Assembly: GCA_028714675.1 (NCBI GenBank)
Contig: JAQTLV010000004.1
Coordinates: 1-64,000, forward strand
Length of the DNA stretch: 64,000 nucleotides
Direction: 5' to 3'
Origin: Sulfurovaceae bacterium
GTDB lineage: Bacteria > Campylobacterota > Campylobacteria > Campylobacterales > Sulfurovaceae
Part shown: positions 1 to 44,927 of the stretch, piece by piece
Layout of the letters: each line of letters opens with the position of its first letter
How positions within the stretch are numbered: position 1 is the stretch's first letter
Notes under the pieces: model-generated
The model's input: the letters and a program-made list of their open reading frames with translations, nothing else
Database searches by the model: none
Told to the model about the DNA's origin: nothing
Translations under genes and position numbers: made by a program

Positions 1-77
1 TCCGAACCTGGAAGTTAAGCCTCCCATCGCCGATGATACTATACCTGTCTGGTATGGGAAAGTAGGTCGCTGCCACA
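1..77 (+). rRNA. rrf: 5S ribosomal RNA, 3' part
   Basis: The window opens inside a 5S rRNA. The stretch beginning CCGAACCTGGAAGTTAAGC is the conserved loop B/helix III region, and GGTATGGGAAAGTAGGTCGC followed by TGCCA is the conserved 3' end. The 5' part and the rest of the rRNA operon lie before base 1. The exact 3' end is uncertain by a few bases. A T-rich stretch follows directly and probably terminates the operon. A degraded copy of this 3' end recurs at 1639-1672. Confidence 0.93.
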
Positions 78-310
78 TTGAGAATTACTTCTTTTTTATT
101 AATTCCCATATTTTTTTATTATTGTTATTGTTTATATTTTTTTATTTATATCAATATAAAATGATAGGCTATTGTAAATACACCTTAGCAGTCCAACATT
201 TATTGGTATATACGTATTTAATCTATGTTATTTCTTGATTTTTAGACTATCTTATATATAATGCAGGTTGAATAAATTGTAAGATTTATTATCAACATAG
301 GAGATGTATC

Positions 311-664
311 ATGGCAATGTATTCGTTTGAACTTACATCGGGTAATCGTACTGGATTATTAAATATGAGGATTGAAGCCGATCCAAATATTTCACATTTT
401 AATGACACCGTTTGGCGCTGTACTCCAGACAACTTTCTTGGAGCAGCAAAGGGAACAATTGCTTGGAAAGGCATGGAGATTGGCCTGTTTTCTGATGATG
501 CTTTGGAGATTCCTGCTGGTGCTCATTATCCTCAAGTGAAGCCGGGTTATCAAGCTTATGCTATTCTTGAAATTCCAGAAGAAGGGCTTGATGAAGTTAT
601 AATCGGCACGACTGGCGTTATGCGTGTGGTTGACGGAACATGGAAACTTACTTCACGTAAATGA
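311..664 (+). CDS. Hypothetical protein, 117 aa
   Basis: I do not recognise this protein. It is small, soluble-looking and acidic, with no signal peptide or membrane segment; tryptophans occur in the VWRC, IAWKG and GTWKL stretches and a Gly/Thr-rich turn precedes the C-terminus. An AGGAG-type ribosome binding site about 10 bases upstream supports the ATG. It is the first gene after the rRNA operon, lies in a segment slightly richer in G+C than its surroundings, and is followed in the same direction by a second unknown gene. Position and composition suggest acquired DNA, which is inference. Confidence 0.6.
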   Translation: MAMYSFELTSGNRTGLLNMRIEADPNISHFNDTVWRCTPDNFLGAAKGTIAWKGMEIGLFSDDALEIPAGAHYPQVKPGYQAYAILEIPEEGLDEVIIGTTGVMRVVDGTWKLTSRK

Positions 665-793
665 TTTGAAAATACTGAGTGAAATAGAACATCAAAAAGC
701 ATTTAAAAAGAAAGCTACTAGCAAATCAGTGGAGCTAATACATTGTCTTGTGGGCAATTTATTGGCGCATTTCAGATGTTAGGCAACACAATC

Positions 794-1423
794 ATGAAAA
801 GACAAATAAAAATTGATATGACACTTGCACCGTGCATTGATCGGGCACATATGTTTATAATACTTGACGAAGATCTGCGTCAAAGACTCACCCTATTGCC
901 AATTTTTCTAGACAAGCTAGAAAATTCAATTAAATTTGCACAAATGATTGGGTTAAAGCAAAAAAATAGTTTCAGAAGTGCTCTCGTTCGTGCTTCAACT
1001 ACAGAATTGGTCACCATTGAAGATATACAACAATCTAGTAAGCTGAATAAATCCATTTTACGGATGAATGATACGAATAATCCATTGCTTTGCGTAATTC
1101 GTGAACTTAGAAACGTCGATATTCATTTGAGTACGTCTCAAATATCTTCTGTAGATCGAAACTTTATATGGGGTCATCCAGACAAACCTTCAGAAGCAAA
1201 ACAAATTTCCATGTCTCTTTATTGGATTGACAATCTTAATTTCGATGTTTTTTCAAAATTACGGTCATTTGACCAAAAATATAACAAAGATGAATTCAAA
1301 GAGGCATTAAATTGGTTTGATACTGTCCAGCGTGAGTGGGGTATTACTGAACTTCTACTACGCACAGCACATTTATATGGTGAAAAGTTGGCAGATCACT
1401 ACGAGCTACATGGGACTTTATAA
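794..1423 (+). CDS. Hypothetical protein, 209 aa
   Basis: Unrecognised soluble protein. I chose the ATG at 794 (MKRQIKIDM) over upstream TTG and ATG codons at 743 and 776 because the residues before it look unlike coding sequence; no strong ribosome binding site decides the matter. It is mostly helical in appearance, with no membrane segment, signal or catalytic motif that I can name. A GTTAGGC heptamer lies 9 bases before the ATG and GTCTAAC lies 25 bases after the stop. This arrangement recalls an integron gene cassette, but no complete attC site is evident (see findings). Confidence 0.6.
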   Translation: MKRQIKIDMTLAPCIDRAHMFIILDEDLRQRLTLLPIFLDKLENSIKFAQMIGLKQKNSFRSALVRASTTELVTIEDIQQSSKLNKSILRMNDTNNPLLCVIRELRNVDIHLSTSQISSVDRNFIWGHPDKPSEAKQISMSLYWIDNLNFDVFSKLRSFDQKYNKDEFKEALNWFDTVQREWGITELLLRTAHLYGEKLADHYELHGTL

Positions 1424-1468
1424 TATGAACATCAGCAAAACATATTTGTCTAACAAATCAAAGAAGGC

Positions 1469-1500
1469 CAATCAAAAACCCACGGGCGGCTTTTTGATTG
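1469..1500 (+). terminator. Hairpin after the 794-1423 gene
   Basis: A perfect 10-bp inverted repeat (CAATCAAAAA at 1469-1478, TTTTTGATTG at 1491-1500) encloses a 12-base G+C-rich loop that can itself pair (CCC with GGG). It sits 46 bases after the stop codon and probably ends transcription of the two hypothetical genes, although no long T run follows. Confidence 0.5.
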
Positions 1501-1524
1501 CTCATTTTAAATGTTTGAAAAACA

Positions 1525-1557
1525 AGTATTCGTTCCCGTTGAGATGATGGGAACGAG
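1525..1557 (+). repeat. Dispersed palindromic repeat, copy 1
   Basis: An imperfect hairpin: CGTTCCC (1531-1537) pairs with GGGAACG (1549-1555), and the stem can extend by three further pairs through G-T wobbles around the loop GAGAT. 26 of 33 bases match the element at 44895-44927. The GTTCCC...GAGA...GGGAACGAG pattern resembles a palindrome scattered through many bacterial genomes; that link is from memory. Confidence 0.6.
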
Positions 1558-1638
1558 GAGATGAGAGGTGTGCTTAAAATCGATTTTATTATTATTTGGC
1601 TACTTTTTTCATTATAAAAAACATAAATATTTTTTTGC

Positions 1639-1672
1639 GGAAAGTAGGTTGCTAGTGCATTTAGAATTTACT
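1639..1672 (+). repeat. Degraded copy of the 5S rRNA 3' end and its flank
   Basis: Bases 1639-1653 match 57-71 (end of the 5S rRNA) at 14 of 15 positions, starting with GGAAAGTAGGT. The match continues with small gaps through CATT, AGAATT and ACT, which correspond to 76-89 just past the 5S. Together the two copies bracket the segment with the two hypothetical genes. The rest of 1424-1775 holds the hairpin and palindrome above and the cbpA promoter; I see no further gene there. Confidence 0.6.
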
Positions 1673-1713
1673 AAAAATAATCAAATATCTTTTTTTAATT
1701 TCTTTAAAGTTGA

Positions 1714-1743
1714 TTGACAAAGACTAAACTATTTTGATATAAT
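1714..1743 (+). promoter_or_regulatory. Sigma-70 promoter of the cbpA-hspR operon
   Basis: TTGACA (1714-1719), an 18-base spacer and TATAAT (1738-1743) form a near-consensus housekeeping promoter 32 bases before the cbpA start. A short inverted repeat, AGTT (1708-1711) and AACT (1727-1730), straddles the -35 box where HspR would be expected to bind, but it is far from the HAIR consensus known in other bacteria, so the operator is only a candidate. Confidence 0.65.
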
Positions 1744-1775
1744 GAATAAAAATATTATTAAGTTAAGGTTTAAAA

Positions 1776-2633
1776 ATGGCTAAAAGTTTATATGAAACTT
1801 TAGGCGTGAATGAGAATGCTACACCAGAAGAGATTAAAAAAGCATATAGGAAATTGGCTCGTAAATATCATCCAGATATAAATAAAGAAGCAGAGGCTCA
1901 AGAAAAATTCAAAGAAATAAATGCAGCGTATGAAGTATTGAGTGATGCTGAAAAAAAAGCACAATATGATCAATACGGTGATCAGATGTTCGGCGGTCAG
2001 AATTTCCATGATTTTGCAAGAGGACAAAGTGCAAATATTGACTTAGAAGAGTTGCTTAGAAGTATGTTTGGTGGCGGTGGTGGAAGATCTTCTTCTGGAT
2101 TTAATGGTTTTTCAGGATTTGGCGGATTTGCCAATCAAGTCGATTTAGATTTGCAAACCAAAATTACTATCCCATTTGTTGTTTCTATTTTGGGCGGAAA
2201 ACACAGCCTAAATATAAATGGCTCAAGTTTTGATGTTAAAATTCCAGCTGGCATTAAAACAGGCGAAACATTGAGAGTCAAAGGAAAAGGCAAAAAATAT
2301 AATGGACAAGTTGGAGATTTGCTGATAAAGGTTGAAGTTGCTAATTCTGCTGATTATGAGAGAAAAGGTGATGATTTATATAAAACCATTAATATTCCAC
2401 TAAAAACAGCACTTTTTGGAGGAACCGTTGAAGTTGAAACGCCAGAAAAGAGTGTATCCTTGAAGATTCCAAAGAACACAAAAAATTCTCAAAAGTTTAG
2501 ACTAAAAGCAAAAGGTGTTATGAATCGAAAAACTATGCTTAGCGGAGATTTGTATCTGATCGCTAATATTATTTTGCCTGATGTTGACTCTATGCCTTCG
2601 GATTTAGTTAAATTGTGTGAAGAAAAATTATAA
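1776..2633 (+). CDS. cbpA: CbpA/DnaJ-type co-chaperone
   Basis: A J-domain co-chaperone that stimulates DnaK ATP hydrolysis and delivers unfolded clients. The J domain occupies about residues 4-70 with the essential HPD at 32-34 in helix II-III (YHPDIN). A Gly/Phe-rich linker (about 88-118) follows, then two beta-rich client-binding domains. The zinc-binding CxxCxGxG repeats of DnaJ are absent, which makes it the CbpA (type II) class; 285 aa is normal for that class. It has a strong promoter, and hspR begins 9 bases after its stop. Helicobacter and Campylobacter carry the same cbpA-hspR pair under HspR autoregulation, so heat-inducible repression by its neighbour is likely. Confidence 0.92.
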
Positions 2634-2642
2634 GGAAAAAAC

Positions 2643-3014
2643 ATGCATAGTTATGAAGAGCCAGTTTATCTTATATCAGTTGTTTCAAATATTTTAAATA
2701 TTCATCCGCAAACTCTTAGACAGTATGAAAGAGAAGGACTGCTTGAGCCTTCTAGAACAGTTGGGAGAATGAGACTTTATTCTAGAAAAGATATTGATAG
2801 AATGAAGTTAATCCTTAGGCTTACTCGTCAAATGGGTGTTAATTTAGCCGGAGTTGATATTATTTTGCAATTAAAAGAACAAATAGACACAGCAAAAGAA
2901 GAGATTAAACAACTTAGAGATGAATTAAGCAAAGTAAATAGGCAAGGTTCTGTTCATGCGAGCAAAGCCTTGGTTCCTAAAAATATCTATGATATTATAA
3001 TCTTTGAGGATTGA
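2643..3014 (+). CDS. hspR: HspR, MerR-family heat-shock repressor
   Basis: A 123-aa DNA-binding repressor of chaperone genes. The N-terminal winged helix-turn-helix is typical of MerR/HspR: YLISVVSNILNIHPQTLRQY, then the EREGLLEPSRT wing with RLYSRKDID, ending at about residue 75. A coiled-coil dimerisation helix follows (LKEQIDTAKEEIKQLRDEL). Unlike metal-sensing MerR proteins it has no C-terminal cysteines. It is co-transcribed with cbpA and preceded by an AAGGA ribosome binding site. In related bacteria HspR uses a chaperone as co-repressor and also controls groESL and dnaK operons; control of its own operon here is inferred. Confidence 0.92.
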   Translation: MHSYEEPVYLISVVSNILNIHPQTLRQYEREGLLEPSRTVGRMRLYSRKDIDRMKLILRLTRQMGVNLAGVDIILQLKEQIDTAKEEIKQLRDELSKVNRQGSVHASKALVPKNIYDIIIFED

Positions 3015-20214: not shown

Positions 20215-20305
20215 GGACAGTTGGGTGAGTTGGCTGAAACCACATCCCTGCTAAGGATGCGTACGGGAAACTGTACCGAGGGTTCGAATCCCTCACTGTC
20301 CGCCA
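20215..20305 (+). tRNA. tRNA-Ser (anticodon GCU)
   Basis: A 91-base class II tRNA. The acceptor stem GGACAGT pairs with ACTGTCC, followed by G and an encoded CCA. The anticodon stem CATCC/GGATG holds the loop CTGCTAA, anticodon GCT (reads AGC and AGU). The long variable arm (CGTACGGGAAACTGTACC) is typical of tRNA-Ser. T-loop GTTCGAATC is intact. Confidence 0.97.
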
Positions 20306-20471
20306 CCTACTATTTTAATCTCCCATTTTAACCATCCAATGTTTAATTCTGTCAAAAATATACATCATTCCAACAATGGCTAATTGCTTTAAATAATACA
20401 GTATTTTGACAATATAACAGTGTTCAAACCAATTATGCTATACTAGCCACATAAAAATTAAAAGGGTATTT

Positions 20472-20675
20472 ATGAAAAAAATTATCATCTTTGTTATTGT
20501 AATTTTATTTGGTATTTTTTTATTTAAAACAAGCGAAAAACATACACAAGAAAATCCAGTAAATACTTATTTGGATAATCGTGTTGATACGATCGAATTG
20601 GCAAAGAAATCGGTCAATGAGAGTAATAATCAAACAGAAGAACAAAATAAGGTCATAGAGGCTATAAAAAAGTAA
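20472..20675 (+). CDS. Small membrane-anchored protein, 67 aa
   Basis: Unrecognised. An N-terminal hydrophobic helix (about residues 3-18, KIIIFVIVILFGIFLF) is followed by a charged tail of about 48 residues, largely helical (DTIELAKKSVNESNNQ). AAAGGG lies eight bases before the ATG and TATACT at about 20440 could be the -10 box. It could be an uncleaved signal anchor. It stands alone between tRNA-Ser and the convergent mdaB gene. Confidence 0.6.
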   Translation: MKKIIIFVIVILFGIFLFKTSEKHTQENPVNTYLDNRVDTIELAKKSVNESNNQTEEQNKVIEAIKK

Positions 20676-20753
20676 ATTTATAAAAAAATACCTCAATCAG
20701 CCTATTTTTTATAATATAAATGAGTTGTCATTGTTACCTGACTCCCTTTTTCC

Positions 20754-21344
20754 TTACTTGCAGTTTTCTCTCAAATGTGCCAAGAATCTTACTTTTTCAT
20801 CTTCTATATTTAGGTCACCCTTGAAAACATCATGAACAGAGAATGTTTTTAGTGGAGTTGCACCACAAAATTGAAATGTTTTATGTGTTGCAATATTGGC
20901 TTCATCAAGGCTTAACCCATCAAAAAACCCATCTTTGTTGTCAAACTCAGAAATTGGACAATTGTAAGTAAGGGAGAGCATATAGTGTTTGCCTTGCATC
21001 AAGCCACCACTTCCATATTTTTTAGAAGCATCACTTCTACTTCTTCCATCGCTTGTGTATGTAACAGTATCTTTTCCAGCTGAGAAAATCTCATCGATAT
21101 ACTTTTTGGTAATCCATGGTACACCCATCCAGTAAACTGGATATTGAAATATTATAACATTTGCCCAAGCAAATTTTTCAAGCTCTTCTTTGATATCATA
21201 AGCACTTTCGATTATAGAGTTTTTGACGATAAAGCTATTTTTTGTAAAAAATTCATTTGCTGTATCGATATAAAACTGTGTCAATTTCCCCTCTGCAATA
21301 TTGGCATAGTGCTGATGACCATTGATAATAAGTATATTTTTCAT
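20754..21344 (-). CDS. mdaB: NAD(P)H:quinone oxidoreductase, MdaB family
   Basis: Flavodoxin-fold two-electron quinone reductase that protects against quinones and oxidative stress. The 196-aa protein has the N-terminal ILIINGH phosphate-binding stretch, IIFQYPVYWMGVPWITKKYID (FMN/FAD-binding core, conserved in MdaB and the NQO family), DGRSRSDASKKYGSGG and the LSLTYNCPISEF segment. AAAGGA six bases before the ATG sets the start. No nearby regulator. Called with confidence at family level; the physiological substrate is inferred. Confidence 0.88.
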   Translation of the reverse strand: MKNILIINGHQHYANIAEGKLTQFYIDTANEFFTKNSFIVKNSIIESAYDIKEELEKFAWANVIIFQYPVYWMGVPWITKKYIDEIFSAGKDTVTYTSDGRSRSDASKKYGSGGLMQGKHYMLSLTYNCPISEFDNKDGFFDGLSLDEANIATHKTFQFCGATPLKTFSVHDVFKGDLNIEDEKVRFLAHLRENCK

Positions 21345-21732
21345 TATTTATCCTTTGTGTTTGGCTTAAAAGATTATAGGCGTAATGTTCTTAATTTATC
21401 TTTTATTGCCTTGAGTATTAATTAAATTAAAATCAGAAACTTTTACATAAAGAAGAAAAATATTTTTTACCATTCACAAAAAGGTTATTTTTTGTGGGAA
21501 GACACGATTTAGCAACAATTGTTGATATTAAATAAAAAATAAGCCTATATTGGAGTATTATGTTCAAGGCTATTCTTAACATATCATTGCTAAAATATTG
21601 GAGCTTAATCAAGTAGCAGCATACGGGGATAATTAAAAGAAAATGAAACATAGAGCATTGAAGCATATTCTTGTGCTATACCCTCCTAGTTAGCCAAGAA
21701 GGGCTATGCTAGTTTCAAATAAGGAGAGATAA
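21345..21732 (+). other. AT-rich intergenic region without a convincing gene
   Basis: I see no supported gene in these 388 bases. A 77-codon frame on the minus strand (21433-21666) lacks a ribosome binding site and has a Cys/Leu/Phe-rich composition typical of chance frames. Near the end, TAGCC (21691-21695) and GGCTA (21702-21706) can form a short hairpin just before the ribosome binding site of the next gene, and CTATACC upstream may be its -10 region. Confidence 0.5.
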
Positions 21733-22059
21733 ATGGATGGTGGGATTTTGATATCATACAAAGTGTTATGTGAAGGAGACTTCTATAGTTCTATAACGAT
21801 AGAAGAGTTATTGAAAAATGAAAAAGTACTCAGGCTTATAAAAAGTGAATTTGCCACAGGGCATAGAAATGTCGACATAAGTTTCGATAAGAGCAATACG
21901 ACTATTAAGCTAGCTACACAAAAAGATATTCAAACATTTGAAGCACATAAAGATGATTATGCAGATGTTTTGGTTTTAGCAGAAGAAGATGCAACAGCCA
22001 AAAAGCTATTTAAAAAAGATTGTTCAGGGGTTGAGCTGGTTGATATTGAGACTTTTTAG
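21733..22059 (+). CDS. Hypothetical protein, 108 aa
   Basis: Unrecognised small acidic soluble protein with no signal or membrane segment. It ends in LVLAEEDATAKKLFKKDCSG and has a single cysteine near the C-terminus. AAGGAG six bases before the ATG is a strong ribosome binding site. It is convergent with the SulP gene, whose stop is 43 bases away. Confidence 0.65.
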   Translation: MDGGILISYKVLCEGDFYSSITIEELLKNEKVLRLIKSEFATGHRNVDISFDKSNTTIKLATQKDIQTFEAHKDDYADVLVLAEEDATAKKLFKKDCSGVELVDIETF

Positions 22060-44894: not shown

Positions 44895-44927
44895 GGTATG
44901 CATTCCCATCGAGACGATTGGAACGAG
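44895..44927 (+). repeat. Dispersed palindromic repeat, copy 2
   Basis: Second copy of the element at 1525-1557 (26 of 33 identical). ATTCCCATCGAGACGATTGG with GAACGAG at the end; the hairpin is imperfect here. It lies 52 bases after the PemK-type stop. Confidence 0.6.

Follow-up and report, generated by a model that had tools for sequence, protein, structure and literature searches.

In Xanthomonas (PMC12444791), intI has been lost, the chromosomal dock of the integron is old, activity was lost progressively, and short arrays remain; in X. citri pv. citri, two cassettes are left without intI. Integrons have also been reported from Campylobacterota, a phylum listed in PMC8618304, and Sulfurovum sp. 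NBC37-1 is tabulated with CALINs in PMC10295459.

The locus described here opens a 119-kb contig (G000:C4). The genome, from a member of the Sulfurovaceae, measures 1.75 Mb; the whole stretch analyzed, 64,000 nucleotides, is called the window below. Positions ~127 to 1519 very likely constitute an integron cassette array without an integrase, holding two cassettes between an rRNA operon and cbpA. The kind of element is known; its dock is unusual, and its attI-like block seems to have been kept. As in a CALIN, two attC sites each come with a single ORF and no intI in the genome exceeds the cut-off, but the array appears to retain a Pc/attI-like leader, which is outside the CALIN definition, and it sits directly behind an rRNA operon. 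It resembles the Xanthomonas integrons in its old chromosomal dock, its progressive loss of activity, and its short intI-less array, whereas the dock is ilvD or secD there and 5S rRNA-cbpA here, and the attC models used here come from Campylobacterota-like genomes. The Campylobacterota integrons are of the same element class and of what we infer to be the same phylum, yet the accessible parts of those two sources mention neither an rRNA dock nor attI-led arrays that lack intI. A literature search yielded no paper treating attC sites, attI, and 5S rRNA together with integrons, and, judged by titles and abstract beginnings, the other papers listed include none on a 5S-cbpA dock.

RESULTS

Two genes of no recognized family lie between an rRNA operon and cbpA

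The features of the locus, all on the plus strand, are as follows.

1..78, +: 5S rRNA gene, 3' part (RF00001, E 8.7e-6, 37.9 bits); the contig begins within the gene
79..126, +: conserved rRNA operon tail; copies diverge past ~126
212..279, +: probable attI-like site, the weakest part of the array; crossover ~279/280 by analogy
235..262, +: putative cassette promoter Pc, TTGATT-16-TATAAT (promoter scan, 10/12)
280..778, +: gene cassette 1, predicted borders (attI crossover to attC1 crossover)
311..664, +: ORF1, 117 aa, no known family, inside cassette 1
716..784, +: attC1 (R2 56.7 bits, E 2.2e-11; R3 28.9 bits, E 4.6e-4)
779..1513, +: gene cassette 2, predicted borders (attC1 crossover to attC2 crossover)
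794..1423, +: ORF2, 209 aa, RNxxxH HEPN-like motif, invariant in an alignment with two homologues
1448..1519, +: attC2 (R3 80.4 bits, E 1.3e-16; R2 E 4.9e-6)
1533..1557, +: dispersed palindrome, REP-like
1639..1672, +: probably a decayed copy of the 5S 3' end with the first tail bases (local alignment)
1776-2633, +: DnaJ-type gene (Pfam DnaJ, DnaJ_C), which we take to be cbpA
2643-3014, +: MerR-type regulator gene (Pfam MerR_1), presumably hspR

The 5S rRNA match falls just below the RF00001 gathering score of 38 because the gene is truncated by the contig start. Another contig of the genome, C7, terminates in the same 5S gene and tail, with 97% identity over window 1-145, which explains the contig break at this point. 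The extent of the tail was taken from an alignment of seven 5S tails from G000, G002, G003, G009, and G010. A search of plasmid DNA with window 1-2000 drew 33 records, and the 20 listed match the cbpA part only (1776-1982). The dispersed palindrome has similar copies in the right flanks of G002 and G008; a second copy in the window, at 44903-44927, has one mismatch to the searched word.

Both intergenic elements match attC models

A DNA comparison of the 11 genomes of the genus showed that window stretches 198-285, 719-782, and 1450-1515 recur several times in the congeners and on contig C3 of the same genome. The loci of recurrence hold other genes in a cassette layout, that is, an ORF followed by an imperfect palindrome running from near YAAC to near GTTA. 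Sites for attC models were taken from the congeners, from contig C3, and from 35 named stretches obtained by one pattern scan of public genomes; they were picked by eye for the alignments A2 (n = 14, including two sites from contig C3) and A3 (n = 26), to which hand-drawn structures were given. Two classes, A and B, were modelled apart because a mixed-class model gave no common structure. The alignments behind the resulting covariance models, R2 and R3, contain no window sequence, and that of R3 holds two sites from another contig of the same genome. The class B stem showed paired changes at 4 of its 20 pairs, a count reached in none of 500 shuffles, and the class A stem, the attC2 type, showed no covariation in 14 sites.

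Both models found both attC sites, and at E 1 neither found a further one in the 64-kb window. R3 also matched the reverse strand of attC2, which is palindromic. The R-box consensus of attC sites is RYYYAAC / GTTRRRY, to which only one box of either site conforms: in attC1, the right box is GTTAGGC and the left departs from the canonical form (AGC for AAC), and in attC2, the left box is GTCTAAC and the right departs (GTTTGAA). When the sites were folded as single-stranded DNA, the bottom strand of attC2 surpassed all of 200 shuffles. The folding of attC1 turned out to be unremarkable on either strand, with 141 (bottom strand) and 70 of 200 shuffles as good. Each attC lies 3' of one short ORF in the same orientation (311-664/716-784 and 794-1423/1448-1519), and crossovers are predicted near 279/280, 778/779, and 1513/1514. 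The first-pass annotation had mentioned a hairpin and a dispersed palindrome without coordinates; the former is probably the center of attC2 (1448-1519), and the latter the palindrome at 1533-1557.

Since part of attC2 (1484-1503) is called terminator-like by a simple scan, one could read the segment as ordinary host genes with terminator-like hairpins. We regard this as extremely improbable, since both intergenic elements match attC models and such models also match beside integrases. Scanned with R2 alone, 6 of 20 integrase loci of other genera gave a match (L131, L136, L139, L140, L146, and L148), that in L136 reaching 92.3 bits; the IntI match is partial in L146 and L148. Moreover, at E 0.001 ORF1 has no relatives and ORF2 has one in the other 174 genomes of the family, the genes at the dock vary between species, and no conservation of ORF1-ORF2 behind 5S was found across the genus. 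Family-wide, R2 matched 80 of 175 genomes at E 0.001 under stricter filters; an IntI match at E 1e-30 was present in 39 of these and missing from the other 41, and 12 further genomes had such an IntI match and no R2 match.

The genome has a second attC cluster at L034 6180-10595 (G000:C3), behind a purH-like gene (by eye), with three R3 matches, one of them truncated, and no attI-like match nearby.

A probable attI-like site precedes the first cassette

We examined the sequence upstream of intI in 19 of 20 integrase loci (L074-L093, with L083 omitted). In 10 of the 19, a block that ends in AATAAATA-GTT was found ~262-278 bases from where the intI match begins. A ten-site attI model was built from the loci with the anchor AATAAAT[AT] 255-285 bases upstream of intI; omitted from it were L084 and L089 (ATATAAATAGTT), L074, L085, L092, and L093, whose upstream sequence was too short, and L076, L082, and L087, which are without the anchor. 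A seven-site model was chosen from the ten by eye. The attI models were applied to the window and to 21 loci, 22 stretches in all. The seven-site model matched array heads in G002, G003 (two), G006, and G010. The ten-site model matched several of the same places, some more strongly and some more weakly, and additionally G002:C2 (L150, E 7e-7) and a further site of G010 (L036 14593-14670).

In the window, an HMM of four congener sites, with the window excluded, matched 212-277 at E 3.9e-10. The best match of the seven integrase-adjacent sites from other genera was weak (226-277, E 0.14), and the HMM of all ten did not match the window at E 10. The attI call thus rests on the congeners, as the strong match came only through their model; by this likeness, 212-279 is probably an attI-like site. 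The putative Pc lies within it. Taken alone, the promoter match is weak, because the scan of 1-1800 returned 11 sites against a shuffle mean of 8.4.

In several of the loci L075-L091, palindromic GGACATTT / AAATGTCC-like words were seen by eye ~180-260 bases upstream of intI and are possibly a regulator site.

No integrase above the cut-off accompanies the array

Matches to TIGR02249 over the cut-off were found in none of the 11 genomes of the genus, two of which are incomplete (68% and 74%), versus 36 of 175 in the family. The same search also gives matches in 14 of 14 control genomes, and the below-cut-off matches in the genus are probably Xer-type and phage-type recombinases. At E 1, tblastn of family IntI proteins against the window returned nothing. 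No integrase remnant was found at the array, and the divergent intI that stands beside the array in a complete integron was not found. The one clear IntI remnant in the fetched loci of the genus, 34 aa with 91% identity, is in G010, between two attI-like sites; these sites (L041 6000-6540, G010:C5) are ~450 bases apart and lie behind tRNA-Ser.

The same dock holds other cassettes in two congeners and none in a third

G002 (L038) and G003 (L037) both show the order 23S, 5S, operon tail, attI-like site, attC cassettes, and then cbpA, with cassette genes that differ from the window ORFs. In the G002 array, no attC match follows the second ORF; by eye, this ORF has an RNxxxH word similar to that of ORF2. 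In G009, 5S is joined directly to cbpA, and neither an R2 match in the genome at E 0.01 nor an R3 match in the three stretches scanned was found. The sequence upstream of cbpA is a different one or out of sight in G004, G006, G007, G008, and G010. The history of the dock is not simple: judged by the cbpA region (82%), the nearest relatives are G007 and G008, neither of which has an R2 match, and the 129 bases and 1.6 kb visible upstream of cbpA in these two show no 5S.

Array heads of this kind are found at several places. Ten attI-like sites of uneven strength were counted in the fetched loci of 5 of the 11 genomes. The dock is behind 5S in three species and behind tRNA-Ser(GCU) in two; other sites adjoin a nifH-like gene or lie elsewhere. 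Those behind tRNA-Ser(GCU) are in G006 and G010, the latter with ~3.6 kb of attI-led cassettes. Window 20215-22059 has tRNA-Ser(GCU) at 20215 with, judged by eye, the same neighbors as in G010, namely, a pyrF-like gene, a 108-aa ORF, and a sulP-like gene, and no attC was found in this interval. A further solo attI-like site with a cassette and an attC, again without an integrase, is present in L042 7792-8570 (G003:C22).

The idea that RNA genes are the usual neighbors of complete integrons in the family was dropped as unsupported: of 20 integrase loci, whose flanks are short, one showed a tRNA, and an Rfam scan that covered 17 of the 20 found no rRNA.

The repeated 5S end is probably unconnected with the cassettes

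The first-pass annotation had drawn attention to a direct repeat of the 5S 3' end on both sides of the segment and to two unrecognised genes between the copies. Both are there. Window 57-89 aligns with 1639-1672 on the same strand at 27 identities, 6 mismatches, and one 1-base gap, for a local score of 31. Among 2,000 dinucleotide-preserving shuffles of 146-1775, none reached 31 with positions 1-90 as the query (best, 29), and one did with the shorter query 57-89. Elsewhere, the query 1-90 scored at best 22 (within 1776-64000) and, on the opposite strand, 27 (reverse complement of 146-64000), so that the repeat stands out without being astronomically rare.

From this repeat it had been proposed that a mobile element inserted into the 5S end and duplicated its target. 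A significant direct repeat in the same orientation does bracket the segment, and G009 does carry an uninterrupted 5S-cbpA junction. We nevertheless consider such an event very unlikely. The left copy ends 190 bases before the first predicted crossover, that at attI, and the right one starts 126 bases after the last, that at attC2, so both lie outside the cassettes. Neither ORF matches a recombinase family, and, as stated above, tblastn at E 1 gave no IntI match in the window. The arrays at the dock of G002 and G003 have no right-hand copy, the best scores there being 16 and 21 (13 and 16 in G007 and G008, where it was not found either), which contradicts, in spirit, the reading of the repeat as an insertion footprint. 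It is therefore unlikely that the 5S repeat is a recombination site. What survives of the proposed site-specific insertion at the rRNA operon is that the genes look site-specifically acquired; the crossovers are predicted at attC and probably attI and not at the 5S end. Among the related rrn junctions, that of G009 joins 5S to cbpA without the genes.

Two explanations concern the repeat itself. The one we moderately favor was the second idea of the first-pass annotation, the stump of an older 5S gene: the right-hand copy would be the remainder of a former 5S gene, or of a former operon end, in front of cbpA, and the cassettes would belong to a separate event. The copy lies just upstream of cbpA, where G009 carries the 5S tail, and its start is 67 bases upstream of the shared cbpA promoter block; in G009 the distance is 106. 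This suits the right-hand copy better than an insertion, although only ~34 bases are left and the copy was not found in G002, G003, G007, and G008. The other explanation, a match by chance, is doubtful but deserves weight. A score of 27 does occur elsewhere, on the reverse strand of the window, and one shuffle attained 31 with the short query; the long query gave no such shuffle, and the copy is on the same strand and in the expected place. With the remnant as the preferred explanation, the right-hand piece would be a bystander, most likely derived from a 5S end that once stood directly before cbpA. Cut off from its operon, this older end would have decayed, and the left copy would have been kept uniform with the other rRNA operon copy.

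ORF2 carries a HEPN-like motif

ORF1 and ORF2 (311-664 and 794-1423) gave no Pfam match at E 1 and no NCBIfam match over the cut-off (best, 0.085 for ORF2, which was queried minus its first two residues). No plasmid record matched ORF1, and no phage record matched ORF2. Three plasmid records of Xanthomonas citri matched ORF2, at 30.5% identity over 62% of its length. PHROGs matches were weak, 0.014 for ORF2 and 0.0096 for a homologue. The predicted structure of ORF1 (mean pLDDT, 35.6) was too poor for a fold search, as was that of ORF2, which is all-helical but has a mean pLDDT of 44.6.

A weak relative of ORF1 in the phylum (G467, E 5.8e-5) lies within a 258-aa ORF and was rejected as probably a chance match because this ORF, by eye, resembles a solute-binding protein. 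The single family relative of ORF2 occurs away from the dock in G002, where it adjoins a nifH-like gene (nifH by eye) and is flanked by an attI-like site and an attC. This locus, L150 (G002:C2) 1227-1984, has one attI-like site, one cassette with the ORF2 homologue, and one attC, with palindromes on both sides and without an integrase.

In ORF2 and two homologues, R106, N107, and H111 are invariant in all three aligned proteins, two of which are mutually close. PMC3710099 defines the HEPN motif as RX4-6H, in which R is typically followed by N, D, or H; ORF2 has this motif, and a polar residue follows its R. The same paper lists a HEPN family encoded in integron cassettes (PDB 3jrt), and, like it, ORF2 is a cassette-encoded RX4-6H protein; the difference is that the kinship of ORF2 is by motif alone, its alignment matching no PDB chain at E 1. 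Searches of Pfam and PADLOC likewise gave no HEPN match, and NCBIfam gave none over the cut-off. At the level of the motif, we propose that ORF2 probably belongs to the HEPN-type RNases, as a toxin or defense protein.

DISCUSSION

The course of events that we envisage starts with an integrase, IntI, that would once have inserted the cassettes by recombining attC with attI. The integrase gene would later have been lost from the genome, leaving the array frozen, and the putative Pc probably continues to drive transcription of the cassette genes. It is a more daring and rather improbable extension that mini-arrays led by a promoter and an attI and devoid of an integrase form a recurring unit in the genus, which may persist because the attI block is a working promoter expressing captured cassettes and may still exchange cassettes whenever an integrase is supplied in trans.

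The locus also illustrates that an insertion may have nothing to do with a conspicuous direct repeat that seems to bracket it. For the organism, two orphan genes become likely cassette cargo. For the family, its integrons gain attC models and provisional attI models, and the dock between the rRNA operon tail and cbpA can be compared among congeners in its filled, differently filled, and empty states.
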